Below are positions 905 through 48,373 of a stretch of 64,000 nt of DNA, one piece after another. The translations under genes were made by a program, and so were the position numbers. Origin of the DNA: Echinarachnius parma. Taxonomy: Eukaryota; Echinodermata; Echinoidea; Clypeasteroida; Echinarachniidae. A model generated the notes under the pieces. The model had not been told where the DNA came from, did no database searches, and saw nothing but the letters and a program-made list of their open reading frames with translations. Each line of letters begins with the position of its first letter. Position 1 is the stretch's first letter. The stretch covers positions 1 to 64,000 of the forward strand of contig JBAMJV010002915.1 in assembly GCA_037951105.1 (NCBI GenBank), written 5' to 3'.

Positions 905-1012
905 ATGGCGGAGAAGCGAGACGTGTCTCTGTCCATCCTTGCAAGTGATGGGACCGATGTCAAGAGCGGTGTGTTATCCCTGCTTCAGAAGAGAACCACG
1001 CTACTGTTTAAA
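905..1012 (+). CDS. Copy 1 exon 1: N-terminus and first PH strand
   Basis: It encodes 36 residues beginning MAEKRDVSLS and ends FK before a GTAAGT donor (phase 0). I chose the ATG at 905 because homology with copy 2 in protein terms begins at exactly this Met. The open frame upstream (809-904) is not conserved as protein between copies. Both copies read TATCTAGATATGGCGG here, so a TAG acceptor two bases before the ATG may join an unseen 5' UTR exon. Confidence 0.8.
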
Positions 1013-4000: not shown

Positions 4001-7000
4001 GACACTTATTACATTATCAACATAACATCTAAATTGCAATTCAAACTTTAATTTAAGAAGCTTTTTCTTTGACATTTTCATACATCACAATTTGACGGAT
4101 CGGATCATGATACATTTTATCAACCATGCACCAGCGTTTGCACATTTCAATTACACAGTTTCTAAATCCCTTAAAACATCTTCTTTTCATACATTTACAA
4201 GGGTCTAGTATCTTTGTTGACACGTACAAACACTGACATGCTGACGGAGGTTTTTATAACGTGTCTGTGTACTTGTGTTACCTGATATGTCCAGAGAGTA
4301 CTATGTGCAGCTGAGAATGTATGCTTGCTACTTAAATATCATGAGACTGAGTAATGGTAGAAAATTAACACAAATTATATTTGCTAATTTATTGCATGAA
4401 CTTTGTACACAGTTGAGTTTCTCACGTGAGACTTTCAAATCCAAACAATTAAATCGGGATCATAACTATAAAAAAGAAGATATTCGGAGAACAAAAACCG
4501 GTACCATGCTTTTTTCGGTAATACGAATACACAGAGTGCATTTTGTGAGTACCACTAAGGTTCTTAGTAAATTGTGTGCATTTAAATGTTACTCCTTCCC
4601 TTTCAGTAGAAACATAACTATACTTGTATTGTTGAATAGGGAAGCTATGAACTATGCCCGTTACACTGGCGACTGCTCTGCTACGCGGGAGACGTTTACA
4701 TGCTCGGCTACACAAGACAGCAACCCGGGCTGAAACCGGCCAAGAAACTCAGCGTCCGGGGATGCTCCACGGACCTCGCCTTACCCACCAAGGCAGTCGT
4801 ATACCGACATAGCAACGAGAACTTCCTCTGTATACAGAAGGGCGAGAATTTGACATTTCTTCACGCAGAAAACAGGTTTGTTTACAAATCGTGCTTTTAT
4901 TCCTGATAGGATTATGGCATTTTACTTCATACATAATTTTATTTTAAAGGTAGGCTGACAAGAAAACTGCCTAAAAATTGTGTGTTACTGTACCTAAGGT
5001 AGATTTTCATGAAGATTACTAATACAAACATATTTTCCTCGTGGGAAAACCCGGTAAAATGAAAAGAATCAACTTGTAAATTCAGTTTCGGAACCCCCGT
5101 AAACAAATTGAGTCCGGGCGAAAAAGTTTAGCTCGGTCATAGACGTACACGCTGAGTGCAATACTCACGTTGACAGAGAGATATTATTTCGATTTGTTTC
5201 AATATTTGCAAACATTTGTTTAAGTTTATATCATGGACGATATACACTCAGATGTGTAGCTGAATCCTGCTACAATTAATTTCTTAGCAATTCTTAGGCT
5301 TTTTCAGTTAAGCCTCAATTTACAAGCAAATACGATTTTGTTTTACTAGCAAGTCATAGGCTCTGCATGTAAACCATGCACGTTCCTCCGTGTTGCGGTA
5401 TTCTTGTGATGTCATGACCCGGGTGACACGTGCGCACATTCCCGCTCCGCTATAAATAACTTTTTTAGGAGCATGGAACGCCGATGCGAAAAAAAGGCAA
5501 AAAAGTTGCATGAATTTTACCTTTTATGCCCAACTTAAGGATTTCTTTGAAAAAAAGAGTGTGGTATATCAATAAAGGCACATATTTAAAGCTATAAACC
5601 TGAATCAAAGCCGGGATTTCACTATACCTTTAATACATTTGAGGCATTTGGCATACCAATTGTTATCATGTTTAGATTTATATTATTGAGTTTCATACCA
5701 AAACATGTTAACCCATTCCCTTCGGGGTTCTAAGATCCGCAAATACATTGTACGAAGCCCACCAGGTTTCCATAGACAAGTGGTTAAAGGGAAATGAAAC
5801 AATGGAAGTTTCGCTTACTGTTACTGACACTTATATCTTGGGTATCACTAATACTGGACATACTAATTTTTATGAACTAACTATGAACTGTTTCCAATGA
5901 CCACTGGAGGCTGCCATGTTTTCCAACAGTACCGCTTAAAACCTTCTAATGGAGTTATGTATGGCAGTGTATGGTACAGTTGGAAAATATCGGAGCCTCC
6001 AAGGTTCAGTGAAAACAGATGATAGTGGTATAAATAACATTGATTATTTCCATTATAAGTTATACCTAAGAGGAAATCGTCGGTCGGCAAATGAAAGGGC
6101 AGTTTGGGCGATAGTATCGACAAATATCGTTTTTCGTTTTTTTGCATATTCGGATAGAGTATCAAAATACCTTTCCAATGATGTTTTCAAATTTTCCAGA
6201 TTTGCCCGAAATCCGGAGATAATCCCCAATAATCAAAGGGCGATATCGCCAAACTGCGCGATTTCGGCAATTAAAAGGGCACTATCGCGCGCGCCCTTCT
6301 TCACATTCGCAAAGTGGAGTGAATTTCGGCAAATGAAAGGGCACTCCCTATACCGTACTGTGTTGAAGGGCGCATACGTCTATGCAGTGTGTAGTGTAAG
6401 AGCATCTCCTTGAAGATCATAATTGTGTTTTTTTTAAAGGCGTATCATAGCATAAGATATGTTCACATAATCAACAAGTTTCCCAGATATAATCTGAATG
6501 CAAATTTATGCAAATTTATGAAAATTTATGCAAATTAGGGAAGCCATTTTGTAAAAATATCATCTATGATATTTCATCCATCAATGAATATACTTTTACA
6601 TTTTTTTTTCTCTCTTTGTTCATGTTGTAAGGGTTAAGGATGATGTTAAAATTATTCGTGAGGTGACATATGACTTTGTGACGTCATGATATGCAAATTG
6701 GCCATAAATTTGCATAAAACTCCATTTTCTTTAGATATAATGATGATTATATCATGATATTACCTGAAAAATAAACGTTAGTCAATATCTATATATCAGA
6801 ACCGCAGAGTGGAATTCATCTCAATGTGATAACAATAGTAATACCTTCCCTCCGCATCTTTTTATGCAAATTTATGCAAATTAGGGTAGATTTTTCTGAA
6901 AAAATATTATATGTGATATTTCTTACAGCAAGTAAGATATATGAACACATAGTGTCGCTATTTTGATGCTGTAAGAGTCAGTGATCGTGATCGAATTATA

Positions 7001-10000: not shown

Positions 10001-13000
10001 GGTACACTCATGTATAATGTAAAACGGATATTTGCCGCTTAAAGGGGTCTTGAAAACCAAATGCATGTTTACTCCTGTATATGTATTGGTTTACACATTT
10101 GTAATTTGTTTTCGAAATTTTAAAAATATGTTTCGTATATTTTTAAATATTGTATCATTTATGTTTCTTCATGTTGCTAAGCCCCACCTCCTAAAAAAAA
10201 AACCTCCAGAGTGAATTCTATTGTTGACTGGTGGTGACATCATCTGTCAATCACTGGTCAGTTACCATGAGATTAGCAAATTAGATGAAAGTACAGAAAG
10301 ATCATGCACACAAAAGCATGCCCTGCACGCCTCCAAACAATAGCTTAGACAGTGCCCTTCTTCTGACAAAGCAACTGCTATTGACATTGAAGGTGTGTGA
10401 GTTGGTATTGTATTCAACCATGTGATGTTATTTGTAACTAAGTAGTGAATGACTGATGGGACTGATGTCACAACCAGTCAACAATACAATTTTACTCGGG
10501 AGAGGTTATCAGAGGTCGGGGGGGGGGGGGGGGGGGGGGGCTAGCACTATGGCGACAAATAACTAATAAAATGTTTTTAAATATACAAAATATGTTGGGT
10601 CAAATGGTTTACAAATAGTTGACGGAAGATAACATGCGTTTTGGTTTACCTGGCCACTTGAAAAAAAAAAAAAACCCGTTTTCACACCCGATTGCTGCTC
10701 TAAAGATACCCGACTCTCAAAAAATGCCGCTCTTTAGACCCCCGGAATGAATTGGCTAAGTAGTATGAAGACATATTAGTTTAAATGACCATTTCAACAA
10801 AATATTACATTATTATAAATGCTAATTAAGACATTCCCCACTAAGCCCTTCAAAAACAACCAATTACAACAAAACTTGTCTAATTTGACTTCTATTATAC
10901 ACACAACTTGAAATTATGTCACATTTCTGCGAATTCGTAATATTCTATGTACAACAATTAAAATAGCATCGTTTATGCAACAAAGCTATGTAAATAAATG
11001 CAATTCTAGTAACGTAAATTGTTAAATTGTTAAATCGTGTCATAATACCATTCAGGAAAAGGTCCTTTTATGTACACGTCAAAAATATTCTTAATTTATT
11101 TTTATTCATTAGAACTTTTCATGCCTCTATCATGATGTTCACGACAACATCAGCTTGTCACCAGCGATTATAAAATATTAAACACGTAGTATAAATTAGT
11201 ATGCCAAATGTATGTCCCTACAATACACGTTTAATAAGGGCGCGCGTATGACGGGCCAATAGTTGTATAGTTTCCTGCGCCCCGATTGGTCAAAACCGTA
11301 CATCTACACCGTGGATGTATCGATGTATAGTTGTACATACTTATGTCATGTTTGGCCCGTCATATACGCGCGCGATATTGTCCTTCTTATCATGCGTATG
11401 CGCGGTGATTATGCATACGAAATCGGCTCATGAAAGGGCGATATGCAAATCGCCCTTTTATACATGATGCGCACTTTGGACTTTGCTTAACGCGTAATAA
11501 GGGTGATGTAATAAAAGTTCATTTTCTTCGTTTTAAAACATAGATTTGACCTGTAAACCAAACACGGCGTTTATTTCTTATCACTTCATCATGTATTAAG
11601 CACACAACTTAATTTACTCATAATATATGAAATATAATGAAAATTTCCTTTACTTGTAAAAAAAACATGTATCGGTTTTTGCTATCGATAGCGTCATAAT
11701 GCCCTTTCATTTGCCGACCGACGAAATAATATACGACTACGCTCAACGGGTATGATGCACTTTTCAGTAACAGTAAGCGAACATTATAGCGTTTGGCCCC
11801 CCTCTTTAATCTAGTGAAACAAAGTTAAATTGATGTCAGACTTTATCACCTACTACTTATTGATTTTTACCACGGTATAAACAAAATGCTTTTCAATTCA
11901 ATCATGAATAATTGTTCATAATAGGGGCTCCAGACAATTGAAATATCCAAATCCGAGTTAATGATCCTGTCACCATAGGCCAAACTAGATTTTGGAAATT
12001 GATAGCAGATTCGAACTCCGCTAAAGTGTGCAATTCATTGGCCAGCTTGCTGCGGTTAATTTCATTTATTCATATAGGTTTGTTTGTGTTTCCGAGAGTC
12101 AATTAATAGCTTTTTATCATAGAATCGAGTTGTTCATGTTCGGAATATATAAAAAAAAAAAAAAAAACATGACTTGATAAGAATATTGGTGCAATTATAA
12201 TTCAATAGCAACATGTCTGCGCTAGACGTACACTTATCAATTGGTAGTGATACTTTTTCTATTATTTCGAAAGATGCATTAATTGTCCCTTTCTCCTAGA
12301 CCACTCTCTTACATGTCCAAACCTAACCCAAACTGCCACAAAAACAACAAAAACAGCATATTATTGCCTTCTCTTGCGCAGACGGTCACGTGATAAGTGG
12401 GTAGATGCGATTCGCCAAGCACTCACCGGACATACCAACCACGCGAATAGTGTCCGCGGCACTGCCGACACCCAGCCTAGGCATGCAGGACCTGGACTGG
12501 TGAACCAACATCGTAGAACCGCTCCGGCTGGCAACTTTCCCAAGACGCGGCCCGGCCCTACGCGAGAGGACTCTCTAGATTCCGTCCACATCCCTTCCAG
12601 CGCACGCGCCTTACAGGAGGAAACAGATCGGAGAAGGTCCAGTGGATTGGTAAGAGCTGCTGTCTACCCAAGACGATCACTTTAAATATATATTTCCCGT
12701 AAAACCCAGCCTGTGTATAACCAGGACAATTCCTGAACGTGGTAATATTGCATGTAAGTCACAATGGAACATAGCTTCGACTACACTCTTTCTAAGGCAT
12801 TTTGATGAAGTTCTTATTATAATTATGAACATTTCAATCCATATTATATTTCAAACCTATGCATGTCGTAAACATATACTTTCTACTTTCACGCAAGGAA
12901 ATGTGTGACTTAACCGCAGCGATAATCAGCGTACATTCACATGATTTATGTGACCAAATTTTATATAATTATTTCAGATGTAACAGACAATAAATATGAC

Positions 13001-16000
13001 GTTTGTTTCGGGAATAAATCCTCTATTTGCATCGATGACTTTTAAAGTGAGAAGCTCAAAATGATGAGACCATCACAAGTATTTTATACCAATATGCATG
13101 CAGCCCCATTTTAAGAACTTGCATGCATGACTCTAACATTTGTAAACTATCTTATATTTATAATACAGAGGTACAATTCCACGGCTCCGTCCTTTGTGTC
13201 ATCTCCAAACACCCTTCAGTCGACACAACTATCCCGGGCACACTCTCTGCACGGCATATACAGCGACGAATCAACCTACTCTGGTTTTGAGGAATGTGCG
13301 TACCTGGAGCCCAATAACGCAGGGCCCCGGGTGTTGAAGTCACAACTGTCAAGGAGTGAACCAAACTTGGAACAGCTCTACTTGCCCGGGCTATACGAAC
13401 GGGCCAGATCACCGGGAGGCACAGACTCAGAGGACTGTTACGAGCAGGTCAGCGACAAGGACCAGTATATCGAGATCATTGACGACGATGATCAGTCTTC
13501 CGCACCATCTGTCGTTCACAATTTGCCCGGGAAACAGATAGAGGATGACATTTACGATGATGTTCCTGAGAGTTCAAAGAAGAACGACGCGCCTCCTCCG
13601 CCCCCGCGCGATTACGAAAATTTCGAAGTTGCTCTGCAGAAGAAGCCTGTCAGCAAAAAGAAGCGTGCTCCGCCTCCACCAGAGCCCAAGGTCGATAAAG
13701 CGAAACCTTTGACTAATCCTGAGACGGACCCTCCAAGAGTTCCGAATAGGCCCGGGAGTGTATCAAACCTCCACAATAATGATTACATGGACTCAATCGA
13801 AAGGGAAAAGACGGTGTGCCTCGACAAACCGAGTCACGCTAGTCGGCCATACATGGAGACGGTGAAACCGAGCATGGACAATCGACGGGCAAGCGATGCT
13901 GTGACTGAACCTCTGTCTGAATACGTTGTGTAAGTTGTATACATTCGCCCGGATTGTTCATGTTAAATAGAGTTGATCAATATGTTTGATGTCTAGCCTT
14001 AAAGGTGAATGACAGTAGTAGGAAACGCCCCACCCCCCTAAACATGAAATGTACGTTCTTATTACCAACCATGTGAAAGACTATAATTGTACTAATATAG
14101 GATTATACAAATTTGGCCAAGAAACCGCCTACTAATTGATATATTTGCAAAATTATAAATTGTTCCGCTGCGGATAGATATCGCCAACGCGGAATCGCGC
14201 ATACGTTACGTGCAATTTGACCACATCGCCATACGGGCTTGTCCCTAGCCGCGCGGACAGCTGCGAACGGGCGGGTGGATTTAGTCATTTCACGGGCGGG
14301 TATTGGATTTCTTCCGATATTTCTGCATTTAACGCATCGTTAGGTTCGGATTTTACCACACAAGCCCTTTGTAGATACTTATTTAACAATATTGATCAAT
14401 TATAAATGTTTTCTGTAACTTTCCCAAAACTGTTATTCATCTTAAACATGGAGTGGGGGATATCATATTTGCAAGTATGATTAACATAATATCAGCGGAT
14501 TTACTTAATTATTATGCGTTATAAATCTACTTAATTGATCTTAAATGAAGGACAATTTTTTGTTAGAATCTTAAATGTTTTTAAAAGTCATGAAGGTCAA
14601 ACGTGCCCTAGTCTTGTTTTGTAATAAACCATTGACTAGTGATTTCTTTATGATTATAACATGCATTTCCAGGAAGTTTCGCAGCGAACTTTTTGAAGTC
14701 GATGGGGTAATGGTGTCTGTTCCGAAGGCTGCACTATCTCGAACCACGATCAAGCTCGTCTGTGTTGGAGATCAAATCTGGTAGGAGAATGTATTCGTTA
14801 TTACAAAGCAGATAGTTAAGTATCATATTAGGGTCCCGTTTAATACAACTTGCCAAATGCCTGTAAATGTCCAAATATTGTAACTGACAGGTCAACAGCC
14901 ACTCGGCATGGAGTATTGCAACTGTTACCATGGCAGTTACAGTAATTGGACATTTATGACAAACGGGGCACTGGGCCCCGTTGCAGAAAGAATTGCAATT
15001 AATTGGAAGTAAGAATGTATGCACAAGTTTGGAGAACCAATACGATTCTCGCATTTTGTGAAATGTTTGGACTTGCAAATACTCGCAACTTTACTGTAAA
15101 CAAATGGTAACTTTTTGCAACGGGGCCATGAAATGCTAGCGATCGCACACTACTCATTTCGTAGCTTTATACCATAGATGTCTACGAATTCTTAGATAAA
15201 AATGTATATAATACAGTCGTATATTATAAAGTCTTAAACACCCTTTATACCCATGAATATGCACTTAATTGTGTGATCGATACAATATATCGGTACAGGT
15301 CGGTGCAGTTTATGGTAGTGGCGCTCCAGTCGCAAACTTAATATTATTAAGGGAAAAGTTCAATTCTTGTGTAGAAGGTGCTTTCGAGAATGTCCTTGTT
15401 TGTGAGGTAATGAAACATAAAACATTTGACTGATTGTACACATATTCGGGACCAACTTTTATTCATTGTAGTATTTAAAGAACATGTTGTTAAATCCCCC
15501 ATTTTTGTATTTTTACCAGAATATATACTCTATCCATTGGTTAAGTATTTATTAAAGTGTTAATATACGGTAATCCTTTTCTTATATTGTCCTTTCTAGT
15601 GTGGCAGCCCTGCACATCTCCAAACTGCAACGGAAGTTACATGTTGGTGACGTCATCACAAAGGTCAACGCCCAGAACCTTCCGTCTGTCAATTTCTGTT
15701 ACGACCTCTTCCAGACTACAGACGAAGCTGATGTGCGTATATTTCATCATTCATATTTGAGGAACTTAGCTCCAAAGGCGCCAAATCCAATTTCCCGAAA
15801 AAAAATGAGTTAACGCTGTCAGTACATTTCAAATATGATTACGCTTCGTAGCTATCTAGAAATCCAAATGTTATGATAAAGTACACAATCAAAATCAAAA
15901 TATGGAACGTTTAATTTTCATTTTACCATATGCATGTGTACAAAGTCGATAAACCTCGTTTTCTCCGATTTGAAAAGTGTATTAAGCGCCTTTTTAATCT

Positions 16001-19000
16001 CGTCATTAAACACGACACTAAACCAATAACAGCAACAACACGACCACCAAAACAAAGTCCAACATAAACACCACCACCAACTACAACAGCACCAACGATC
16101 AGTTCAGATATTGGTAAATGGGGGGAGAGGTGGGGTAGGGGGTGGATGGGTCCGGGACGAGGGGGTCAAGATTAGTGACAATTATTTTATATATTGTATG
16201 CATTTCCATGCAATTATACGCAAGTACCATTATATATATATGTTACTCATCACCCAGCTAGTAATACAACTCGATATCCCATTTAGCACCCACACATTTT
16301 ACAACTCGGTACTCTACGTGGTAACCAACTCGACACCCAATATGGGCCAAAACTGCGTACTTTAATCGGTACTGAAGCCGAACGAAGTTTGACAAATATA
16401 ACACAATTCCCATTCTGGTAACGAACTCAAATCCCACATGAACGCCAAACTTGGCGCCAAAATTGGTGCCCGGATTGCCACCCGTGTTGGCGTCATATAT
16501 TTTGCACCAACCACCATGCAATTGATACGTTAATCGGTGGTCAACTAGGAAACTATTCCGGCTTATTATTCTTAGTATTGCATTAATGTGTAGATCTAGA
16601 ATCTCCTAAGCTAGGAGTTGATGAACTCTATGTCAATGCAGAAATGAGACCTTGGGCATAACAAAACATAATATTTGTCGGGTATATTTACCAGTATATC
16701 AACACAAATGTGTCACACTGATCGGTACCCAATGAGGCTTCTATTAAATTAAGCTCCAGCTCACGCACCAAATTATAACCTAATAGGTACCATACAGTGT
16801 CAATATCTGCACATAAGCTGATATCAAACATGAAGAGGGGGCATTGTCTTAGTTTCGACTGATTGTTTAACTCAATATAAGGTAACACTTACAAGTCAAA
16901 TTTGAAATGTGTTAATTTGATCTTATTTTACGCTTATAGGTTCGCCTACTCGTGAAGCGTGTGCCACACGGCACACTGAGTCATGTGACTATGACTGCCA
17001 ATGGGAACATCGCTTCGCTTGGCCTCCAATTCGAAAATAATGCTCAAGGCATTGAGGTAGGAGAGCAAACAATTTCAACTATTGTATTCAAAATTCAGGC
17101 CTATTGCATTTTTGGATACAAAAAACAGATTTGTTATTGGCAATTATTTCAACAAATGTTAATGTACTTGTACTATAGAAGGTATCGTAGTAACACTTAC
17201 AACAGGGCCCAGTAACTGCACTATAACCAGTTGTAATGATGATTTGTAATGATTACTTATACATAATACCTGACCATTATCGTCAATAACATTACTAGTG
17301 CCCATGGATCAAAACGTATGCGCTCAGAAGCCCTGTATTAAGCGCGATATAAATGCAAGCTATTATTATTATTATTATCATGTATTTTTACTATGTTTAT
17401 GAGAAGAGTTTATACTGCAGCAAACCTGATGATAAATTATTTCACAATCTTACATTCGGATTTCTTACAGTTGACCCCACAATGATTTGATTTTCTCATG
17501 CAGATAACAAAGATACAGAACATTGGACTGGTCGCAAAGAGTGGGCATCCTTCTCAGCCAAGAGCCTGCGGTATCGTTAACGGAGGTACCCCGGTGAATT
17601 GGGGTCTCGTAGAAATCAACCAGTCTCCCATTTCACTTGAATCAACTCCACAAGAGGTACAGTAAAGGGGTAGTAGAGATTTGGTAAGGCTGATCTTTAG
17701 AACCAAAACCTGCACAATAACATTACAAACTACTAGTTATAACTTCAACATGCTCAACAGGTATAGACAATTAGAAACGACTCAGTAAGACGCATGTTAT
17801 CATTCAAATAGAGCTATTAAAACACGAGAGGGCGCTCTCTAAACAAACATTGGTTTCAACCTTTTTTCATACAAAATTATGCATGTGATGCTTTGTTGAA
17901 ATAATGATTAAATATAGAGATCATCAACAACTATTATAAAAGCCTCTTTTGAAAATGTTTGAAAAAGTGTAAGCATTTTATTTATGAAAACAAAAATCAT
18001 CGAATAAATCTGGGCCCCAGATTTATTCCGATCGGATATATTTATTAATATTTCAGCCGTTTCTGAACCGATTTTGATGAAACAGAGTTTACTCTGTCAT
18101 TACAATCGTATGCTCTTTCAAATTTTACATTTAGTGTTTTATTATCACAACAAAATAATTTCGTGCAGTGCCCTCTATACCAAAACTGAACTACCCATTT
18201 AATTGTATAGATTGCAATTCTCTCTAACATACAATTGTCAAAGCGAACTCGGAATAAGAAATACATTTTGTACATTGCAATCCTCTGTACCAAGTATACC
18301 ACGTACATGCACATTGACAACGCGAACTAAAAAAAAGAGGTTTATTTCTGCTTTGCAATTCTTTCTACCATTCGTACTACCATGGCTACGTACATACAAT
18401 TTGGCAGCAAAGGATAAAAGTTGAGAACGAGAGGGCTCCGGGTTTAGTTCAGTGAGCTATGTAATAGACATACAGTTTACTGATCACTGTCCCGTCTCAA
18501 CCTCTCACAAATGGGTGGGTAGTAACACTGCATATTCTCATAATTTAAAGTGCAATACACAGCTTAGAAGATATCACAAGTCATATCAAACAGAACTGCT
18601 AGTATTGTTGCAACGAACCCTCTTATAAAGTCGCTCAAGCCGAGCTGCTGAGAAAAAGTGGAGACAATATTTAAATTGTTATATGCACAGTCTATTGTAT
18701 TTGATGGATTTCTGACTCCTTTCTGACTCTGAAAGATGCGGCTTTGTAAGGGTTTATTTTTTTGTGGTAACATGTAACAAAAGGACATACAATTGCAAGG
18801 GATACAGATTATGTATAGAGGATAATGTTGCTACACGGTGGTGAAGTGTGGTCGGTTGATTGAGGGACACGCGAGTTATTGTAATGTTATTTGTGTTTTT
18901 CTCGGTTTTTTCTAATTCTTTGTTGGCAGCACATGCTCACGTAATAAACCTTAATTGTACAACATGTTACAGTGTACAGTGCTAACTGTTAACAGTGTTC

Positions 19001-30389: not shown

Positions 30390-30422
<33 letters not shown>

Positions 30423-32603: not shown

Positions 32604-32609
32604 ATAACT

Positions 32610-33370: not shown

Positions 33371-33478
33371 ATGGCGGAGAGGCGAGAGGTGTCGCTATCC
33401 ATCATTGAAAGTGATGGGACCGATGTCAAGAGAGGTTTGTTATCCCTGCTTCAGAAGAGAACCCCGCTACTGTTCAAA
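33371..33478 (+). CDS. Copy 2 exon 1
   Basis: It begins MAERREVSLSIIESDGTDVK and ends FK before GTAAGTGA (phase 0). The same 36-residue length as copy 1 supports this start. The RGLLSLLQKRTPLLFK segment fits the first PH strand. Confidence 0.8.
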
Positions 33479-36400: not shown

Positions 36401-39400
36401 ATGCACGACAATTTAATGTGTCATGCAGCTCTGCACGGTAACCCACTGCAAGACGAATGATTTGTATCGCTGAAAACAAATTTGTCATGCACAAAGTTGT
36501 CACACACAAATTTCACATCTGTACTAGATATCTGCCGTCTACGTGCCTTTGTTGACATAATTAAGTGTTACTTCAGTTGTCACTTTGTCTTTGTCGACTT
36601 GTGTCTTGACTCGATCGGTAGATATAGGCTAGATAGTTAGTAGTGCCAGTAACATTAGTGCGGTTCTTCACTCAAACTTAAATTTGTGCATGCAAATAAA
36701 GTTATGCATGCATGCAGCGCATTATCAGTTCAGTACTACACAGATTAATTCCAAAAGGTGCTAAATCCATGTTTTGCACTTCGGAGAAAAATAGGTTTTT
36801 CCAACGTTGTACACGTGCTTATGCTTACACGAGAATATGAACATTGATTGTTCAAAATTTTGATTTTGATTGAATATTTTTTCCTTAAATTGTGGATTTC
36901 TAGATAATGAACTGGTATTGTTAACTTATTGGTACGAAATGAGGATTTGGCGCATTTTGGAACTACAGTACACACTTACACACGTTATAGTGCGTTATAC
37001 GCATATGGTAAGTACGTTCGTATAGTACGGTACTAGTTGTGTACATAATATATTTGTGTATGAGTACCGCGCGGTGCGCGCGTTAGCGCGAGTTTGCGAT
37101 CGAATATCGATATCAAAATTAAACATATTGCTATACAGGGCGCATGCGCACGATATGATTTCTGACAAATCTTTCATTCCAAAATTCGTATTGTATGTCT
37201 AAATTTGTCCCTTAATTTGTCCTTCCTGATAAGATTCGTCGTCCTCAATCGGACTGACCATATCCATTTGTCAATTCGTGCTTGTTGGATTCGTCAGTTA
37301 AAGAAGTTTGTCAAAAATGATTTACATTCGTTACCTAAAGACGTGAATAACTAAGTAATTTGTCAAACTACTTAACTGATTTGTCAATTGGCATAAAGTT
37401 ATCGTCATGATAGCGTGACGAATTTTACAGCCACTTTGACAAATCTTGCCCAAGCTTGTCTAAACAACTCTAAGAGTGTAGTCTCGGTTCGACTTTGAGT
37501 ATAAAGGCCATCATGTTGTGTATTGAATGATGTGGTTTCGATCGTTGTTTTTGTGCGAAAGACACTTATACTTACAATTCTTTAAATTTGCAATATAAAC
37601 TTTTGTTAAAGAATGTTCAGTATTTGATTGTTCAGTATTGAATGTTCAGTATTTGATATCATTGTTTGTTAGTTAGTATGTTTTGAAATATTTACAGTAT
37701 TGATGCGGACCTATATATATTATGTTATACAAGTGGTTCAGATCCAAGTATGATACAAGAAAATAGAACATAATATGTATTACAGTCATGTTCAATAAAC
37801 ATGTCTCAGTATGCTTAAACGTGTGTTTACGTTACCCTAGGTCATTCTAAGTGATACATTGTTGAAAATTAAACACTTTCCTGTCAAGCCGTTTGAATGA
37901 TTCTAGTACATTTGTTGAAATATGCAATAACTGACGAAGGGTTGGTAACTTGTGCATTTTTTCGATATGATATGTCCACAGGCTTATGCGTGAGATTTCC
38001 ATGCTAAATAATATATCATGAGTTACAGTTGTAAGTCTCCAATGGAGACTTTCAAATCCAAATTCTTCAATCATAAATATCAAAAAAGACGTCCACATAA
38101 CCCAAACCCGTTCCACGCTTATGTCGGTAATACGAATACAACAAGTACATGTGTTGAGTACCACTAGGGTTCTCAGTAAGTGTGGATTTTTATAATGTTA
38201 CTCCATCCTTTTAATGGTGCCGTCACATCGAGGCTACGCTTCTACTGCGCTCTAGACAATAGCTGATCACAAGCACTGGAATGTATCTGCAAAATATCTT
38301 TTGTCCAATGAGGATCTTTAATGGGAAGATTATCTCACTTGCTCGAAAAGAAAACCTCCCATGCATGCACAGACAATACCGCCCTGAACAATAGTCACCT
38401 CTACGCTTTTACTACGTTTATTTTGGGGGTGTCCAAAATGAACGTGGCAATGCCACAATCTGAGCTTTTGTCAGGGAGCCATTGTATGTTCATGCATGAG
38501 AGGCTATCCTTTCACGCGTGTGCAATAATCCTCACATTCATTCGTCATTTAACAAAAGACATTTTTATAAAAGGCCACTCAAGCTACTCGTTCCTACAAT
38601 GCTTCGCCTCGCACTTCCATATTTATGAATGGGGATTAGGAGCGCAGTAAGAGCGTAGCTGATGTGACGGGGGTATAAGTGGAAACATAATTGTACGTTT
38701 ATTGTCGAATAGTCTGGAGGCTACCAATTATGGCCGCTTTACTGGCGGCTGGTCTGCTACTCGGGCAACGTGTACATGCTCGGCTACACCGGACAGCAAC
38801 CCGGGCTGAAACCGACCAAGAAACTCAGCGTCCGGGGATGCTCCACGGACCTCGCCTTACCCACCATGGCGGTTGTTTCACGACATTGCAACGATAACTT
38901 CCTATGTATACAGAAGGGCGAGAGTTTGACATTTCTTCACGCAGAAACCAGGTTTGATACGAATCATGTTATTATCCCTGATTAAAGCTAAATAACTTCA
39001 TGGGCTTTCGTAAAAGGTTTAAGTCCCGCCAAACTGCACTGTTCATATTTCAACGTGCCGCAGTGATTTGGTTTCCTCTCATGTGGGAACGTATTATTTT
39101 CCGTTTGAAATGTTTTTTTCGAGAGCCCGGCGGTGTCAGTTAATTTTGAAATGTGTAAGTGGGCGTCGATCATGGGGAGGGGGGGGGGGGGGGGGGATAT
39201 ATATTTGAGGTGGGGGATGGCCTGTATTATTATCCCCCCACCCCCCCCCCCCCCCCCCACCCCCCCAATATTTGGGGTTCAAAATATATAATAACATTTA
39301 AAATGTTTCGTTATGTGAAAGTTGATACAATAGTCTTTTTTAAACCACATCTTGAGATTGCTTAACTGCCCAAATCCAAAATCTTCCGGTGGCTGCGCCT

Positions 39401-42400
39401 CCTAGACCCCCATTAAGGTCACTTGAACCGATCCCCGTATACATTTGATAGTTTACTTCCGGACTTCTCGCTATGCCCACTAAATTTGAGCTAAATATAT
39501 AACTATATATTTCCTATTTACATAAGGACATATTTAGATCTGGATATGAACAATCTAAAAGTTTCCGGGGGCTCTGCCCCCTGGATCCCATTAAAATTCC
39601 CAATGTAGGTATCCTTTCACTGATTCCATTCACGGTTCCATCAGGGAAAGGTTTTTGTGCCCCCTACATGTATATGTATATGCTCGGATACAAGTCAACA
39701 GACGGGAAATAAACTCAAAACGAATCATCAATGGTTGTTGTTATCTTTTCCTTTTCTCGGATAATCTGTGTTGTTGTTTGTTCCTGGACAATTTCGTAAC
39801 TACATACTTTATGTTTGCCTTCTCCTGCGCAGGCGGTCACGTGATAAGTGGGTGGAGGCGATTCGCCAAGCACTCACCGAACCTACCTACAGTTCATCGG
39901 CCTCTTCCACCTATTCCGCCGATACCCTTGACTCGAACCTCATACATACCTACCACAATGACTCCCGGTTCAACGCGAATAGCGTCCGCGGCACAGCCGA
40001 CACCCAGCCTAGGCATGCAGGACCTGGACAGGTGGAACAACATCGTAGAACCGCTCCGGCTGACTACTTTCCCATGACGCGGCCCGGCCCTACGCGAGAG
40101 GATTCTTTAGATTCCGTCCACATGCCTTCCAGCGCACGCGCCTTGCAGCAGGAAGCAGAACGGAGAAGGTCCGGTGGGTTGGTAAGAGCTTTTGTTTGAA
40201 TATTAACCCACCCATAACGATTTTTCGTATAGATATATTTTCCATAGACCATAGTCTTACCGGGTCAAGTCCTGGACGTGATAAGTCAGAATGGAACATA
40301 ACTATGACTATGTTATTTATAATGCATTGCAATGGAGTTCTATAGTATGAACCTTTCAATCCAAATTTCAGTCCTGATATTTTAAACCTATGCATACCAA
40401 ATACCCTTTCTACTTTCAAGCAAGGAGACATGTGACCAAACCGCAGCGATAATTAGCATACATTCATGTGACATAATTTCATTTTAACAATATTCTTCCA
40501 GACCACACTTACAATAAATATAAGGTTATTTTTGGAACCAGTCCTCTAATGGCATTCATGCCTTTTAAGGTGAGAAGCGCATTATAATTATGATCATCAC
40601 AATGATTTCACATCAAGATAAACGTACATGCATGACTCTTACACACGTAAATATCTTCTTGTTATGATACAGATCGAGGTACAATTACACAGCTCTGTCA
40701 TTATGATCTTCAAAATGAGTTCATATCATATGAACGTGTACGCATGACGCTTACATATAATCTTCTTGTTATAATACAGAGGTACAATTCCACGGCTCCG
40801 TCCTTAGTGTTGCCTCCAAACACCCTTCAGTGGACAGAACTATCCAGATCACGCTCTCTGCGCGGCATATACATAGACGAATCATCCTACTATGGCTTAT
40901 CAGACTGTATGTACGAGCAGCCCATTAGCGTAGGCCCCCGCGTGTTGAAGTCACAACTATCAAGGAGTGACCCAAACTTGGAATACATGTCCTTGCCCGT
41001 GCTACACGAACGGACCAGATCCCTGGGACGCACGGACTCAGAGGAGTGTTACGAGCTGATAAGCGACACGGACCAGTTTATTGAGGTCGCACCATCTGTC
41101 GTTCACAATTTGCCCGGGAAACAGATAGAGGAGATTATTTACCACAATGCACTTCCTGAAAGTTTTGGGAAGAACGACGCGCCACCTCCTCTGCCCCCGC
41201 GCGAAAACTGTCACGTTGCTCTGCAGAAGAAGCCTATCATCACGAAGAAGCGTGCTCTGTATCTACCAGAGCCCAAGGTGAACCCTTTGAACAATCCCGA
41301 GACAGACCTCACCATACTTCCGAATAGTCTCGGGACTGGCATGACTGGAACAAGTGAACGGAGTGTATTCGACCTCTCCAATAATGATAACAGCGACATG
41401 GACTCAATCGAAAGGGAAAAGACGGTCTGCCTCGACAAACCAAGTCACGCGGATCGGCCATACAAGGAGACGGTGAAACCGAGAGCGAACAATCGACGGG
41501 CGAACGATGCTCTGTCTGAATACATTTTGTAAGTTGTATACATTCCCCCGGTCCTTTTCATTGAATAGAGGCGAGCGATATCTGTGCTTAGGGGAGGGGA
41601 GATAACATTCCTAACAGATTGTCAGCGGGTTTCACATTTTTAACAGAATTTGAAGCGGGTATCACATTTGCAAGTTTTCCTAACAGAATATCAGCGGATT
41701 TACTTATTTTCCATTCGTTATAAATCAACTAAACAAGTTTGAAGGTCATTTGTTTTTTAGGAACCCGTTCACTTCGAGATTCTGTAATCCCCATAGACGT
41801 TGTACATACGCCACCCGGTTCCCTCAAGTAACGGGTTAAATTGGGTGATTATGGTTATAATCGTCATAAAGGTCGAACCTGTTCCATGCTTGTTTAGTTG
41901 TTTTGTAATAAACCATTGACTAGACTTTTCTTTATGATTATAACATGAAATTTCAGGAAGTTTCGCAGCGAACTTTTTGAAGTCGATGGGGTAGTGGTGT
42001 CTGTTCCGAAGGCTGCGCTATCTCGAACCACGATCAAGCTCGTCTGTGTCGGAGATCAAATCTGGTAGGAGAATGTATTCGTTATTACAAAGCAGATTGT
42101 TATGTTACAGATCAGGGTCCCGTTTCATAAAACTCGGCATGGAATATTGCAACTGGTGCCATGGTAGTTACAATAATTGGACATTTACCAATGTTTACAA
42201 GAATGAAAAACGTTTTATAAAAATAATTGAAAGTGAGAATATATGCACAAGTTATGAGAACCAATACGATTCTCGCATTTCGTGAAATGTTGAGAGTTAC
42301 AAATAATCGCAACTTTACTGTCAACAAAATTGTTAACTTGTTGTAACGGGGCCATGAACTGCTCATTTTGTAGCTTCATACCACAGTTCGGAGTTCTTAG

Positions 42401-45400
42401 ATAAAAATGTATCTAATACATTCGTATACTATAATGTTTAAACACCCTTTATACACATGAATATGCACTTAATTGTGTGATCGATATAATATATCGGTAC
42501 AGGTCGGTACAGTTTATGGTAGTGGCGCTCCAGTCGCAAGATTATTTGAGGGGATAGTTAAATTCTTGTTTAGAAGGTGCATCGAGAATGTCCTCGTTTG
42601 TGAGGTAATGAAAGATCGTACAAATAGTCGGGACCAACTTTTATTCAATATAATATGTAAAGAAAATATCGTTAAATCCCCCATTTTTGTATTTTTACCA
42701 GAATATTTGTAATTGGATTTGTCTAATAATATACTCTATACATTGGTTAAGTATGTATTAATGTGTTAAAGGGATACCTGTAAAGTGTCAGATATTGCAC
42801 AAACTGACATTTGAGACTTCAATCCTATATCAATATCATTGTAAAATAGAATTGAAAGATTTGTGAAAGTTTGAAAGAAAACGAACACTGTTTACCTAGT
42901 GAAAAAAACGAATATTGAGTTCATATTTTATCACCGAATACTGATGGTCTGTTGTAGATTTGTCGCAGTAATAATCATCCGTTTGATCTTGCCGATATCC
43001 GCCCCCGTGTATACAGCTACAGACGGTACGGCATTCATGGAATTTGCGCACGCTAGGCACAAAGTTCAGTGGGTCGGGAAAATTTCCCACGCGCGCTGGC
43101 AGGACGTGTTCAGCGACGACAATTGTACTTGTTATCAAAACCGTTAGCTAACGCTTTTGAAATAATGAATTCAATGATAATTATCTTCATACTGAAGGGA
43201 CATTTGAAAAAACCGAACCCTATTTTATTCTTCTCTTACCATAAGCTAAACAACACGGTAGAAGAGAAACAAGGAAGTTCCAAGTATTGTTCGTGGAGTT
43301 ATACACTTTACAGGCATGCCTTTACTATACGGTAATCCTTTTCTTATATTGACATTTCCAGTGTTGCAGCCCTGCACACCTCCAAACTGCAACTGAAGTT
43401 ACATGTTGGTGACGTCATCACAAAGGTCAACGCGCAGAACCTTCCGTCTGTCAATTTCTGTTACGACCTCTTCCAGACTACAGACGAAGTTGATGTGCGT
43501 ATAATTAATCATTCATATTTGAGGAGCTTGGTTCCAAAGGCGCCAAATCCAATTTCCAGAAAAAAAAGAGTTTACGATGTCAGTACATTTCAAATATGAT
43601 TACGCTTCGTAGCTATCTAGAAATCCAAATGTTATGATAAATTACACAATCAAAATCAAAATTTGGAACGTTTCATTTTCATTTTACCATAGGCATGTGT
43701 ACAACCTCGGAGAAATCTGTTTTTCTCCGATTTGAAAAGAGGATTAAGCGCCTTTTTAATCTCGTCATTTATTTAGACACTAAAACAATAACAGCAACAA
43801 CACGACCACCAAAACAAAGTCCAACATAAACATCACCACCAACTACAACAGCACCAATACACGTTAATTATTTATAAAAATGGTGATCAGTTCAGATATT
43901 GGTAAATGGGGGAGAGGTGGGGTAGGGGGTGGATGGGTCCGGGACGAGGGGGTCAAGCTTAGTGACAATGATTGTATATATTGTATGCATTTCCATGCAA
44001 TTATACGCAAGTACCATTATAGATATATGTTACTCATCACCCAGCTAGTAATACAACTCGATATCCCATTTAGACCCCACACATTATACAACTCGGTACG
44101 TGGTAACCAACACGACACCCACTATGGGCCAAAACCGCGTACTTTAATCGGTACTGAAGCCGAACGAAGTTTGACATATTATATAACAATTCCCATTCTG
44201 GTAACGAACTCAAATCCCACATGAACGCCAAACTTGGCGCCAAAATTGGTGCCCGGATTGCAGGGGCGTCGATCACGGGGGGGATGGGGGGGATATATCC
44301 CCCCCAATATTTGAGGTGGGGGGGATGGCCTGTATTATCATCCCCCCAATATTTGGGAGGGTAAAAAAAAAAAAAAGAAGTATACTGGCGCATGTAATTG
44401 TGCTTCAGGCTACCATAAGCAAAACAAGAAGTGCGATCCGCCCTTTGGTTTTCTGCAAACTTGATTTCATTAATTGTGTTTATCTATAACACGGTAACTC
44501 AGAAACAAGTTTATAAAACGTGAAATTGATGCCTTAGGTATGCTCCAGATTGCACAATTTCAAGCCCCAAAATGCAATAGCTTCCTACCGTGGGAGGGGG
44601 GACACCCCCCTCCCACACCCACCCCCCCCCCCCCCCAGGCGCGGATCTACGGGGGGGGGGGGGGGGGGGGGTTAGGGGGTTTAAACCCCCCCCCCCCCCT
44701 TGGGCTGCCAAGTGAAAATGTGATGTGCATAGACAAACGCCATCATGGGTTTAACCCCCGCCCCCCCCCCCCCCCCTTGGGCTGCCAAGTGAAAATGTGA
44801 TGTGCATAGAAAAACGCCATCATTGTGTCCAGACCCACACAGTAACCGTATCGTCATTGGGTCAAACCCCCCCCCCCCCCCCCACCCCTTAGCAAAATAG
44901 CCCCCAAAAAAATCGCCTCGCCGCTACGCGGCTCGTGGACGATGCTCCGCATCGTCATTGGGTCAACCCCCCCCCCCCTTAGCAAAATAGCCCCCCCAAA
45001 AAAAATCGCCTCGCCGCTTCGCGGCTCGTGGACGAGGCTCCGCCTCGTCATTGGGTCAAACCCCTGATCATCCCCCCCAACCATGAGAAGAAATCAACGC
45101 CCTTGCCGGATTGCCACCCGTGTTTGCGTCATATATTTTGCTCCAAACACCATGCAATTGATACGTTAATCGGTAGTCAAATAGGAAACTATTCCGGCTT
45201 ATTATTCTTAGTATTCCATTAATGTGTAGATCTAGAATATGCTAAGCTAGGAGTTGATGATCTCTATGTCAATGCAGAAATAAGACCTTGGGCATAACGA
45301 AACATAATAATTGTCGGGTATATTTACCAGTATATCAACACAAATATGTCACACTGATCGGTACCCAATGAGGCTTCTATTAAATTAAGCTCCAGCTCAC

Positions 45401-48373
45401 GCACCAAATTGTAACCTAATAGGTACCATACAGTGTCAATATCTGCACATAAGCTGATAGCAAACATGAAGAGAGGGGCATTGTCTTGGTTTCGACTGAT
45501 TGTTTAACTCAATATAAGGTAACACTTACAAGTCAAATTTGAAATGTGTTCATTTGATCTTATTTTACGCTTATAGGTTCGCCTACTCGTGAAGCGTGTG
45601 GCACACGGTACACTGAGTCACGTGACTATGACAGCCAATGGGAACATCGCTTCGCTTGGCCTCCAATTCGAAAATAATGCTCAAGGCATTGAGGTAGGAG
45701 AGCAAACAATGATTGTATTCAAAATTCAGGCCTATTGCATTTGTGGATACAAACGAATTTGTTATCGGCAATTATTTTAAAACAAATGTTATTGTACTTG
45801 TACAACAGAAGGAATCGTAGTAACACTTACAACAGGGGCCCAGTTCAAACACTACAGCCAGTTGTAATGATGATTTGTTATGATTTTGTATAAATAATAC
45901 CATCATCGTCAATTACATTACTAGAGCCCATGGAACATTACGTATGCGCTTGGAAACCCTGTATGTATACAAACCCTGTATGTATGAAACCCTGCAATAA
46001 AAATGCAAGCTAATAATTATTATGATTATTTGTATTATCATGTATTTTTACTATGTTTACGAGAAGAATTTATACTGCAGTAAACCTGATGATAAATTAT
46101 TGCACAATCTTACATTCTGATTTCTTATAGTTGACTCCACAATGATTTGATTTTCTCATGCAGATAACAAAGATACAGAACACTGGACTGGTCGCAAAGA
46201 GTGGGCACCCTTCTCAGCCAAGAGCCTGTGGTGTCGTTAATGGAGGTACCCCGGTGAATTGGGGTCTCGTAGAAATCAACCAGTCTCCCGTTTCACTTGA
46301 ATCAACTCCACAAGAGGTACAGTAAAGGGATGGTAAAGATCTGGTAAGGCTGATCTTTAGAACCAAAACCTGCACAATAGCATTACAAACTACTAGTTAT
46401 AACTTCAACATGCTCAACAGGTATAGACAATTAGAAACGACTCAGTAACACGCCTGTTATCATTAAAATAGAGCCATTAAAACACGAGAGGGCGCTCTCT
46501 AAAAGCTCTTGAAAAAGTGCAAGCATTTTTGTAATAAAAACAAAATCAACGAATAAATCTGGGCCCCAGATTTATTCCGATCGGATATATTTATTAATAT
46601 TTCAGCCCTTTCTGAACCGATTTTGATGAAACAAAGTTTACTCTGTCATTACAATCGTATGCTCTTTCAAATTGTATATTTAGTGTTTTATTATGTCACA
46701 ACAAAATAATTTCTTGCAGTGCCCTCTATACCAAAACTGAACTACCCCTTTAATTGTATAGATTGCAATTCTCTCTAACATACAATTGTCAAAGCGAACT
46801 CGGAATATGAAATAAATTTTGTACATTGCAATCCTCTGTACCAATCATACCACGTACATGCACATTGACAACGCGAACTCAAAACAAAAGGTTTATTTCT
46901 GCTTTGCAATTCGTTCTACCATTCATACTACCATGGCTACGTACATACAATTTGGCAGCAAAGGATAAAAGTTAATTGAGAACGAGAGTGCTCCGGGTTT
47001 AGTTCAGTGAGCTATGTAATACACATACAGTTTACTGAGCACTGTCCCGTCTCAACCTCTCACAAATGGGTGGGTAGTAACACTGTATATTCTCATAATT
47101 TAAAGTGCAATACCCAGCTTAGAAGATATCACAAGTCTTATCAAACAGAATTGCTAGTATTGTTGGAACGAACCCTCTCATAAAGTCGCTCAAGCCGAGC
47201 TGCTGAGAAAAATGGAGAGAAGATTTAAATTGTTACATGCACAATCTATTGTAATTGATGGATTTCTGACTCCTTTCTGACTCTGAAAGATGCGGCTTTG
47301 TAAGTGGTAACGTGTAACAAAATGACATACAATTGCAAGGGATAGAGATAGTCGTAGAAGCTAAAAACAATTATGTATAGAGGATAATGTTGCTACACGG
47401 TATTGAAGTGTGGTCGGTTGATTGAGGGACACGCGAGTTATTGTAATGTTAATTGTGTTTTTCTCGGTTTTTTCTAATTTTTTTGTTGGCATAACTTGCT
47501 CAGGTAATAAACCTTATTTGTACAACATGTTACATTGTACAGTGTTAACTGTTAACAGTGTTCAAGGTGTGTTTCACATTGTGTTCAGTGTGATGAGTGT
47601 TGACACTGTTAAAACGCTAGAATTGAACACTGTCCACACGTTGTGTTAACACTTTGCCATATGGTGTGAACAACTTGTGTTCATACTGCGGCACACTATG
47701 TTATATCCGGAGGGTTACGCAATGGTTCGTTATATTCATTTAGATATGTATGACCAAACAAACTGTTACATAACGTGCCCCGGATGTCACGGAAGCCCCG
47801 ACATACGTTATACCTTTTATCTGTACATGGTGGCCTTTCGGCAGAAATATTGAAATTTACAATGATGATATAGGCTAATACACCTCGCCTCGAGTTATTA
47901 TTTCGTATACTTATGGAGCGGTCAAAGGTCACACACACATTGGTTGTGTTGTTTATTAATACTTATTGGTTTACGTATAACACCACTTTTGCACATACTC
48001 TACACCGTTAGCAAATAAATACAGACGGGTACATCATCATATGCTAGCAATGCACGAACGTTTAAAGCAGCGCTATTATGGTGAATATGGCACAGAGAAT
48101 GATGCATGTACTAACAAGGACATAATATAATTAGGTATGAGAACATAAATAACAATTATGATTATTATTATATATGCGTGATAATATATTAAATTCACAA
48201 TAATTGTCAATACTATAAAATGTATCTTTGTTTTGTTCGTTGTATCTTTAATGCAGGTAATGGAACGACTCCGATCAGCCGGCTGCGAACTTGCACTCGT
48301 GTTTCTTCCGATGGACATCGTTCAGCTATTTAAGGAAAAATATTGTGATGATAAGGAAGATTGTTGTGGGTGA
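33371..48373 (+). CDS. PH / tyrosine-rich linker / PDZ-like adaptor protein, copy 2 (nine exons, span)
   Basis: This is the tandem paralogue of the gene at 905-19828, predicted at 690 aa from 33371-33478, 38713-38951, 39833-40181, 40780-41528, 41957-42064, 43362-43494, 45577-45693, 46164-46316 and 48257-48373 (2073 nt, in frame). Phases and domain order match copy 1. It has a longer linker after the PH helix (27 extra residues) and a shorter exon 4. The PDZ-like half is almost unchanged. Both copies have complete frames and intact splice sites, so both could be working genes. A collapsed-haplotype artefact is possible for the very similar 3' half but fits the diverged 5' half poorly. Confidence 0.85.
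34170..34593 (+). mobile_element. TTAA-type MITE, family F (copy 2 intron 1)
   Basis: TTAA-AGGGGACCACCAGGC at the left and GGTGGTGGTACCC-TTTAA at the right. The copy 1 counterpart (TTTTAGTCTAGCTTATAG, about 2450) lacks it. Confidence 0.75.
34862..35247 (+). mobile_element. TTAA-type MITE, family B (copy 2 intron 1)
   Basis: TTAA-AGGGACTTAGTAACATTG to AACAAAGTTACTAGATCCC-TTTAA. Copy 1 is uninterrupted at the matching place (about 2740). Confidence 0.85.
35588..37481. mobile_element. 1.9-kb element with CTACACTCTTA ends and TTTGTCA-rich subterminal arrays
   Basis: CTACACTCTTA at 35588 is mirrored by TAAGAGTGTAG ending 37481. Copy 1 is continuous at this point (about 3915). Both ends are crowded with ATTTGTCAW and TTCGTCA words, the kind of subterminal repeats that transposases of hAT-like elements bind. 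No transposase frame remains. Family C is nested at 35606-36152. Confidence 0.65.
35606..36152 (+). mobile_element. TTAA-type MITE, family C, nested
   Basis: TTAA-AGTGATACCTGTAAAGTG at the left and ACACTTTACAGGTATGACT-TTAA at the right. The inverted ends are about 20 bp. Confidence 0.85.
37902..38213 (-). mobile_element. Decayed family B element (copy 2 intron 1)
   Basis: It is the counterpart of 4199-4609 in copy 1 and ends ATGTTACTCCATCCTTTTAA. Confidence 0.5.
38220..38670. mobile_element. CCGTCACATC inverted-end element just upstream of copy 2 exon 2
   Basis: CCGTCACATCGAGGCTACGC at the left and GCGTAGCTGATGTGACGG at the right. Copy 1 lacks it between CCTTCCCTTT and AACATAACTA. Confidence 0.75.
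38713..38951 (+). CDS. Copy 2 exon 2: central PH domain
   Basis: It follows TCGAATAG and ends AG|GTTTG (phase 2). It encodes SGGYQLWPLYWRLVCYSGNV and then the same loop and strands as copy 1 (GYTGQQPGLKP, NDNFLCIQKGESLTFLHAET). An inverted-repeat element ends about 42 bases upstream of it. Confidence 0.8.
39161..39285. mobile_element. Relic of the hAT-like element (copy 2 intron 2)
   Basis: GGGCGTCGATCATGGGG and the following G and C runs with AATATTTGGGG match the first part of 44261-45105. The right end is missing. Confidence 0.6.
39833..40181 (+). CDS. Copy 2 exon 3: PH C-helix with 27 extra linker residues
   Basis: It follows CTGCGCAG and ends before GTAAGAG. RSRDKWVEAIRQALT is the PH C-helix. 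It is followed by a Ser/Thr/Tyr-rich insert (EPTYSSSASSTYSADTLDSN, then LIHTYHND) absent from copy 1, and then the shared ANSVRGTADTQ. The insert adds three tyrosines. Confidence 0.85.
40621..40779 (+). repeat. Duplicated exon 4 acceptor region in copy 2
   Basis: CATGACTCTTACACACG...GATACAGATCGAGGTACAAT at 40633-40686 repeats about 105 bases later as the true acceptor and exon start. The upstream version keeps an AG but its coding continuation is decayed. Confidence 0.7.
40780..41528 (+). CDS. Copy 2 exon 4: remodelled docking linker
   Basis: It follows AATACAG and ends before GTAAGT (phase 2). Relative to copy 1, YENF is replaced by ENCH, YIEI by FIEV, and YDDV by YHNA, which creates a new YxN motif at residue 353. 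YLPE arises at 393, and YMDS and YMET are changed to DMDS and YKET. The proline patch APPPLPPR keeps a PxxPxR core. The frame stays open, so this looks like change within a coding exon and not decay. Confidence 0.85.
41957..42064 (+). CDS. Copy 2 exon 5
   Basis: It follows AAATTTCAG and ends before GTAGGA (phase 2/2). It is the same as copy 1 except for Met to Val in EVDGVVVSVP and two silent changes. Confidence 0.8.
42115..42353. mobile_element. Inverted-end element GGGTCCCGTTT/AACGGGGCC (copy 2 intron 5)
   Basis: GGGTCCCGTTTCATAAAACT to TTGTAACGGGGCC. It is shared with copy 1, where more of it is kept. Confidence 0.55.
42766..43325 (+). mobile_element. TTAA-type MITE, family C, copy 2 only (intron 5)
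   Basis: The copy 1 empty site reads GTGTTAATATACGGTAATCC. Here GTG-TTAA-AGGGATACCTG opens the element and GGCATGCC-T-TTAC-TATACGG closes it. The second target copy has one A to C change. Confidence 0.85.
43362..43494 (+). CDS. Copy 2 exon 6: PDZ-like core
   Basis: It follows ATTTCCAG and ends before GTGCGT. It keeps LHVGDVITKVNAQNL. Three amino-acid changes (Ile to Thr, Arg to Leu, Ala to Val) separate it from copy 1. A TTAA-type element inserted in the preceding intron ends about 36 bases upstream. Confidence 0.8.
44261..45105. mobile_element. hAT-like non-autonomous element (copy 2 intron 6)
   Basis: The 8-bp target duplication CCGGATTG lies at 44253-44260 and 45106-45113. Ends are CAGGGGCGTCGAT and ATCAACGCCCTTG (11 of 13 matching as inverted repeats). 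The empty site in copy 1 (about 16470) reads GCCCGGATTGCCACCC. The interior is dominated by G and C homopolymers and holds a second element from 44636. Confidence 0.9.
44636..45065 (-). mobile_element. Second hAT-like family, nested and truncated
   Basis: CAGGCGCGGATCTACGGGG and GGGCTGCCAAGTGAAAATGT match the complete element at 63184-63601 in reverse. The ATCGTCATTGGGTCAA unit is present twice, with hairpins GACGATGCTCCGCATCGTC and GCCGCTACGCGGC. The far end (TAGATCCGCCCCTG) is missing. Confidence 0.75.
45577..45693 (+). CDS. Copy 2 exon 7
   Basis: It follows CTTATAG and ends before GTAGGAG (phase 0/0). It encodes VRLLVKRVAHG, the linker, and SLGLQFENNAQGIE. It is identical to copy 1 except for Pro to Ala. 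Confidence 0.8.
46164..46316 (+). CDS. Copy 2 exon 8
   Basis: It follows CATGCAG and ends before GTACAG. It differs from copy 1 by six bases, three of them changing amino acids conservatively. The same MITE sits just after the donor, so that insertion predates the duplication. Confidence 0.8.
46322..46754 (+). mobile_element. Family A MITE after exon 8 donor (copy 2)
   Basis: It is the counterpart of 17662-18202 with about 105 internal bases missing after GAGGGCGCTCTCTAAA. Confidence 0.75.
48257..48373 (+). CDS. Copy 2 exon 9 and stop
   Basis: It follows TTAATGCAG and ends with TGA at 48371-48373. It is one base different from copy 1. The 3' flank lacks the ACGACCC-rich block that follows copy 1. 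Confidence 0.85.
   Translation, partial: VMERLRSAGCELALVFLPMDIVQLFKEKYCDDKEDCCG

Follow-up and report, generated by a model that had tools for sequence, protein, structure and literature searches.

Gene structure

The window analysed here, a stretch of 64,000 nucleotides from Echinarachnius parma (contig JBAMJV010002915.1), contains two neighbouring genes that raise the question of which kind of protein they encode and whether its parts, a PH domain, a docking linker and two PDZ-like modules, place it in a known adaptor family. Both genes were reconstructed from the nucleotide sequence. Copy A (905-19828) encodes a protein of 666 aa and copy B (33371-48373) a protein of 690 aa, each in nine exons (Table 1), so that the pair begins at 905 with the ATG of copy A and finishes at 48373 with the final base of copy B's stop codon. 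GT donors and AG acceptors were present in 16 of 16 introns (eight per copy), and the intron phases after exons 1-8 were 0,2,0,2,2,0,0,0 in both copies. The original prediction of a tandem pair of cleanly spliced nine-exon genes with the same phases was confirmed, and the locus is a genuine tandem arrangement of two intact adaptor-like genes. The start codon and the 5' end of both models are not certain. In each copy the frame continues without a stop ahead of the ATG (stretches from 820 and 33286), and TCTAG followed directly by ATATGGCG, a possible acceptor, is common to both.

Table 1. Exons of the two gene models and extent of the younger block shared by the copies
Feature	Position	Strand	Basis
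Copy A exon 1, ATG, PH region start	905..1012	+	model; 5' end uncertain
Copy A exon 2, PH core	4640..4875	+	model; low-confidence fold with six strands
Copy A exon 3, C-terminal helix of PH RSRDKWVDAIRQAL and linker start	12382..12649	+	model, Pfam
Copy A exon 4, Tyr/Pro-rich linker	13169..13929	+	model, motif scan
Copy A exon 5, PDZ1-like start	14673..14780	+	model
Copy A exon 6, PDZ1-like core, LHVGDVITKVNAQNL	15600..15732	+	model, PDB, Pfam
Copy A exon 7, PDZ1-like end and PDZ2-like start, SLGL loop	16940..17056	+	model, home-made PDZ profile
Copy A exon 8, core of PDZ2-like, carrying the insert	17504..17656	+	model, home-made PDZ profile
Copy A exon 9, last part of PDZ2-like, protein ending in DKEDCCG, stop TGA	19712..19828	+	model
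Copy B exon 1	33371..33478	+	model
Copy B exon 2	38713..38951	+	model
Copy B exon 3, exceeding that of A by 81 nt	39833..40181	+	model, alignment
Copy B exon 4, linker	40780..41528	+	model, motif scan
Copy B exon 5	41957..42064	+	model
Copy B exon 6, PDZ1-like core	43362..43494	+	model, Pfam
Copy B exon 7	45577..45693	+	model
Copy B exon 8	46164..46316	+	model
Copy B exon 9, TGA	48257..48373	+	model
Younger duplicated or converted block, copy A, unaligned gaps inside	15560..25046	+	matching pieces, non-coding bins
Matching younger block, copy B, unaligned gaps inside	43322..52701	+	matching pieces, non-coding bins

Several other features were observed in and around the genes. Intron 2 measures 7506 nt in copy A (4876-12381) and 881 nt in copy B (38952-39832), and that of copy A holds inverted repeats at 8425-8959 and 8619-10432. 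Exon 1 of copy B is flanked on both sides by an inverted repeat at 32227-35239, with 380-nt arms that are 96% complementary. Intron 8 of copy A includes a 207-aa open frame (18955-19578) with no Pfam match, and copy B has no frame of at least 120 aa at the matching place. Both proteins end in DKEDCCG (19805-19828 and 48350-48373) with the cysteine pair unchanged; as a speculation, this pair might be lipid-modified.

Open frames with a length of 120 aa or more number 17 in the window. Six of them overlap exons of the two genes, the ten scanned away from the exons gave no Pfam row at E 0.01, and one more lies at 1730-2125 on the minus strand. tRNA and Rfam scans of the window gave no matches. 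A dispersed repeat family occurs at 3172, 17668, 28809, 46328, 49310 and 51186, that is, in introns of both genes, between the genes and downstream of copy B. A tandem array of a 113-nt unit in about 4.7 copies is located at 56599-57139, and a long inverted repeat at 54416-55916 (458-nt arms, 85% complementary, 585 nt between them) is possibly a foldback element.

Coding constraint and duplication history

Nine of nine exon indels between the copies were multiples of three in the nucleotide alignment, against 5 of 47 gaps in the aligned introns 4-8. Substitution rates were obtained from Nei-Gojobori counts, and the synonymous excess was assessed with Fisher tests. For the whole coding sequence dS was 0.159 and dN 0.092 (p 0.0007). 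The PH part gave a dS of 0.214, a dN of 0.087 and a dN/dS of 0.40 (p 0.010), and the PDZ-like part values of 0.070, 0.019 and 0.27 (p 0.006). For the linker dS was 0.202, dN 0.147 and dN/dS 0.73, and the synonymous excess was not significant (p 0.12). Based on the ratios and the Fisher tests, the PH and PDZ-like ends are therefore under purifying selection, whereas the linker is indistinguishable from neutral. That the copies are pseudogenes or false gene models, a reading to which the dN/dS of the linker lends something, is extremely unlikely in view of the intact frames, the matching splice sites, the exon indels that all keep the frame and the low dN/dS of the PDZ-like part. The protein identity of 96% in the PDZ-like part probably reflects mostly youth, since the exons there are barely more alike than the introns. 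Evidence for constraint comes from dN/dS and not from identity.

For alignable non-coding DNA, identity between the copies was determined bin by bin, each bin being 400 bases long. It was 76-84% at 12.3-15.1 kb (six bins with a value) and 89% at 15.1-15.5 kb. At 15.5-25.1 kb it was 93-99% in 18 of the 21 bins with a value, the other three being at 89, 92 and 91%. This younger block includes unalignable segments at about 21.5-22.3 and 23.9-24.3 kb, and the similarity stops at 25046 in copy A and 52701 in copy B. When 15100-25046 is compared with about 42.3-52.7 kb, identity jumps inside intron 5, which suggests that the 3' half underwent gene conversion or was duplicated a second time. Because non-coding identity is so much lower before 15.5 kb than after it, the half encoding the PDZ-like modules is taken to have been duplicated or converted later. 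An alternative explanation, in which the copies are separately assembled haplotypes and not a tandem duplication, would fit the divergence of only 1-7% in most bins after 15.5 kb, but not the 16-24% divergence of alignable non-coding DNA at 12.3-15.1 kb, the seven indels in exon 4 or the difference in the length of intron 2; it is considered very unlikely. The alignment is most simply read as an old duplication, after which exons 6-9 and 4-5 kb downstream of them were converted or duplicated again. Such a later event would account for the near-identical PDZ ends and the differing linkers.

The N-terminal PH domain

Pfam searches with the whole proteins placed a PH domain under the curated cut-off, at E 0.0031 and 18.4 bits for copy A and E 0.0021 and 19 bits for copy B. 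When the region was cut out, which was done for copy A only, PF00169 matched at E 1.4e-4 over model positions 9-104 of 105, with 22.7 bits against a cut-off of 25.1. A PDB search with the PH region returned seven matches, none significant on its own (best E 0.14): three to CERT, whose chains are named collagen type IV alpha-3-binding protein, two to kindlin-2 (fermitin 2), one to pleckstrin-2 and one to a nanobody. The CERT, kindlin-2 and pleckstrin-2 chains are PH chains.

Structure prediction of exon 2 alone gave a model of low confidence (pLDDT 48). It shows six strands, as many as PH strands 2-7 would contribute. None of the 96 Foldseek matches of this model reached E 0.001 or better, and the match list is uninformative. 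Among the best 50 of the 96, the PTB of CCM2 was found at rank 2 and the PH of USP37 at rank 40, amid unrelated folds. The usual phosphoinositide signature of PH domains was not evident by eye. As judged from profile searches, the presence of a PH domain, which had been predicted for both copies, is probable and the assignment fair: the cut-out of copy A argues for it in its E-value, and its score stays below the curated cut-off.

The linker and its docking motifs

The predicted tyrosine- and proline-rich linker was borne out in both copies by its tyrosine content, SH3-type patterns and disorder-like composition. It comprises 328 residues in copy A and 351 in copy B. The charge-hydropathy boundary classes it as disordered and both protein ends as folded. 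Copy A has 13 linker tyrosines and copy B 15 (13 if the cut is made on the coordinates of A, since two tyrosines in the insert of B then fall into the PH bin). Eight are common at aligned positions, and 5 of the 13 in copy A are not kept in copy B. The linker of copy A carries one YxN site (YENF, which we take to be a Grb2-type site) and SH3 patterns of class I (one) and class II (two). The YENF tyrosine is deleted in copy B, which has two other YxN sites; among SH3 patterns it has a single one of class II, PPLPPR, and none of class I. Patterns of these kinds may bind SH2 or SH3 domains.

The C-terminal PDZ-like modules

Whole-protein Pfam searches gave PDZ rows under the curated cut-off (E 0.066 for copy A and 0.1 for copy B). 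The first module, PDZ1, when cut out of either copy, matched PDZ, PDZ_6 and PDZ_Tricorn at E 0.004-0.012, likewise under the cut-off; PF00595 scored 17.7 bits (E 0.0049) in copy A and 16.8 bits (E 0.0087) in copy B, with a cut-off of 23.2. SHD1 also appeared with the cut-out PDZ1 (Pfam E 0.2 and 0.12) and was taken as a chance match. The cut-out second module of copy A, PDZ2, gave no PDZ row in Pfam, only EAL at E 0.26. All five PDB matches of the PDZ-like region were to INAD (four) or MPP2 (one), with a best E of 0.45. A profile of both copies retrieved the same five chains, which are PDZ chains, at a best E of 0.058, none of them significant alone. PDZ2 alone had no PDB match.

The modules were also scored with a home-made profile of 85 positions, built from 18 PDZ sequences, with the best domain taken as the score. 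PDZ1 obtained 11.3 bits in copy A and 10.5 in copy B, and PDZ2 obtained 7.5 and 10.3 bits. In shuffle tests, run on the modules of copy A only, 0 of 2000 shuffles were as good for PDZ1 (best 9.9) and 0 of 2000 for PDZ2 (best 5.4). The matches were partial, covering profile positions 43-62 in PDZ1 (about 20 residues) and 11-44 in PDZ2 (about 33 residues). Two controls were included: the score of the PH part did not stand out, being equalled or exceeded by 852 of 2000 of its shuffles, and the linker received no score.

By eye, PDZ1 retains LHVGDVITKVN and lacks the X-phi-G-phi carboxylate loop; LSRTTI is found where a GLGF-like loop is expected. According to PMC7138185, the third position of X-phi-G-phi is nearly always Gly in human PDZ domains, with three exceptions. 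In PDZ2, SLGL fits this loop in both copies, the GD motif is missing and an insert of about 19 residues precedes strand 4 (by eye). Both modules are called PDZ-like because PDZ1 has RTTI in place of the loop, and PDZ2 has the insert and no GD motif.

On these matches the assignment of PDZ1 is fair and that of PDZ2, the least certain, is weak. The original prediction of two PDZ-like modules is fairly supported by Pfam for PDZ1, at scores under the curated cut-off; for PDZ2 it receives support from the home-made profile and none from Pfam or PDB. It is also conceivable, although somewhat unlikely, that the protein has one genuine PDZ only and that its last approximately 120 residues adopt another fold or represent a decayed PDZ no longer able to bind peptide. 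The Pfam and PDB results for PDZ2, its missing GD motif and the insert ahead of strand 4 all fit this explanation. Set against it are the profile scores of PDZ2, of which that of copy A was reached by none of its shuffles, the fit of SLGL to the carboxylate loop and that of STPQEVMERL to the second helix (by eye). The architecture is probably PH-linker-PDZ-PDZ, the last module being the least certain.

Proposed function

With a probability of slightly above one half, the two tandem intact genes encode a cytosolic, membrane-associated scaffold, anchored by its PH domain and docking partners through phosphotyrosine, the PDZ half of which was homogenised or re-duplicated later. We infer the following mechanism. 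The PH domain would hold the adaptor at the membrane, and linker tyrosines in acidic contexts would be phosphorylated and then recruit SH2 proteins. The proline motifs of the linker would bring in SH3 proteins, and the complex would be clipped to the tails of receptors or channels by the PDZ-like pair at the C terminus. The pair of genes would have been born by the old duplication, with the PDZ half homogenised or re-duplicated afterwards.

If this architecture holds, one chain would couple the sensing of membrane lipids to tyrosine-kinase docking and PDZ scaffolding. The tandem pair, with its common PDZ end and diverging linkers, could then serve as a natural experiment in adaptor rewiring after duplication.

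Comparison with known families

Whole-protein Pfam searches, the filters of which drop most rows above about E 0.1, gave no domain beyond PH and PDZ and no PTB, IRS, DH, DEP, SH2 or SH3 row. The lack of PTB, DH, DEP, SH2 and SH3 rows speaks against plain membership in the Dok/IRS, Mint or P-Rex families. No named family with the order PH-linker-PDZ-PDZ was matched in Pfam, PDB or the open-access literature, and no such adaptor was described among the literature matches listed (titles and abstract starts). The original prediction that the protein matches no known family stands for these three sources only. Public databases probably contain an uncharacterised orthologue, which would be compatible with this reading. 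The alignment of the PDZ region was also searched against a viral contig collection and against prokaryote genome contigs. One or other of two peptide patterns occurred in 95 stretches of the former and 91 of the latter; none was confirmed in either, and neither is an animal-genome collection.

In a pairwise test against 18 PDZ domains, PDZ1 was closest to CASK, syntrophin and Shank, with X11 PDZ1 in 5th place, and PDZ2 to Erbin, PTP1E-2 and NHERF1, with X11 PDZ2 4th and syntenin PDZ2 9th. A specifically X11- or syntenin-like PDZ pair was unsupported by this test, as no family stands out. Syntenin has, as here, a PDZ pair with a short connector near the C terminus; it has no PH domain and is about 300 aa long.

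The copies could instead be fast-evolving members of a known family (of the Mint/X11, syntenin, Gab or Dok/IRS type) missed by the libraries. The ranks of the X11 domains agree with such an origin, Mint proteins likewise end in a tandem PDZ pair (PMC10820826), and PMC7260276 reports that molluscs and annelids have docking proteins of PH/PTB type that are related to Frs2. This is judged unlikely, with no single family leading the pairwise test, syntenin PDZ2 ranking low and no PTB or IRS row in the filtered Pfam output. PMC10820826 describes Mint as having a disordered N terminus and a PTB ahead of the C-terminal PDZ pair. Mint/X11 is thus similar in its long disordered stretch and PDZ pair, and differs from the copies, which have an N-terminal PH domain and no PTB in Pfam. 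The Frs2-related proteins differ by having a PTB (PMC7260276). The human PDZ table of PMC7138185 includes ARHGB, ARHGC, CNKR1-3, PREX1/2, RHG21/23, the syntrophins and TIAM1/2.

P-Rex resembles the copies in having a PH domain upstream of two PDZ domains and differs by its DH and DEP domains, for which neither copy has a Pfam row. Its full order is DH-PH-DEP-DEP-PDZ-PDZ, and we know of none among the PH-carrying human PDZ proteins from ARHGB to TIAM1/2 with the domain order seen here. The closest solved chains to PDZ1, below significance (best E 0.058), are those of INAD, a PDZ-only protein, and MPP2, a MAGUK.

Dok and IRS have a PH/PTB make-up according to PMC7260276. Both copies lack a Pfam row for the IRS-type PTB that follows the PH domain in Dok/IRS. 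The Gab, Dok and IRS families resemble the copies in an N-terminal PH domain followed by a tyrosine-rich docking stretch, and to our knowledge none has a PDZ-like C terminus, unlike copies A and B. In Gab the docking stretch is phosphorylated by receptor-linked kinases; the linkers here contain candidate motif patterns for such docking. It is possible, although tentative, that the copies form a distinct, lineage-restricted adaptor class, in which a Gab/Dok-like front (a PH domain and a stretch for phosphotyrosine and SH3 docking) is fused to a C-terminal PDZ-like pair. If the PDZ half only was homogenised recently, the tandem copies of such a class could retain the same partners there and diverge in what they dock. 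Each PDZ-like module would keep a different half of the peptide site, by eye the GD-I-VN strand in module 1 and the GLGF-like loop in module 2.
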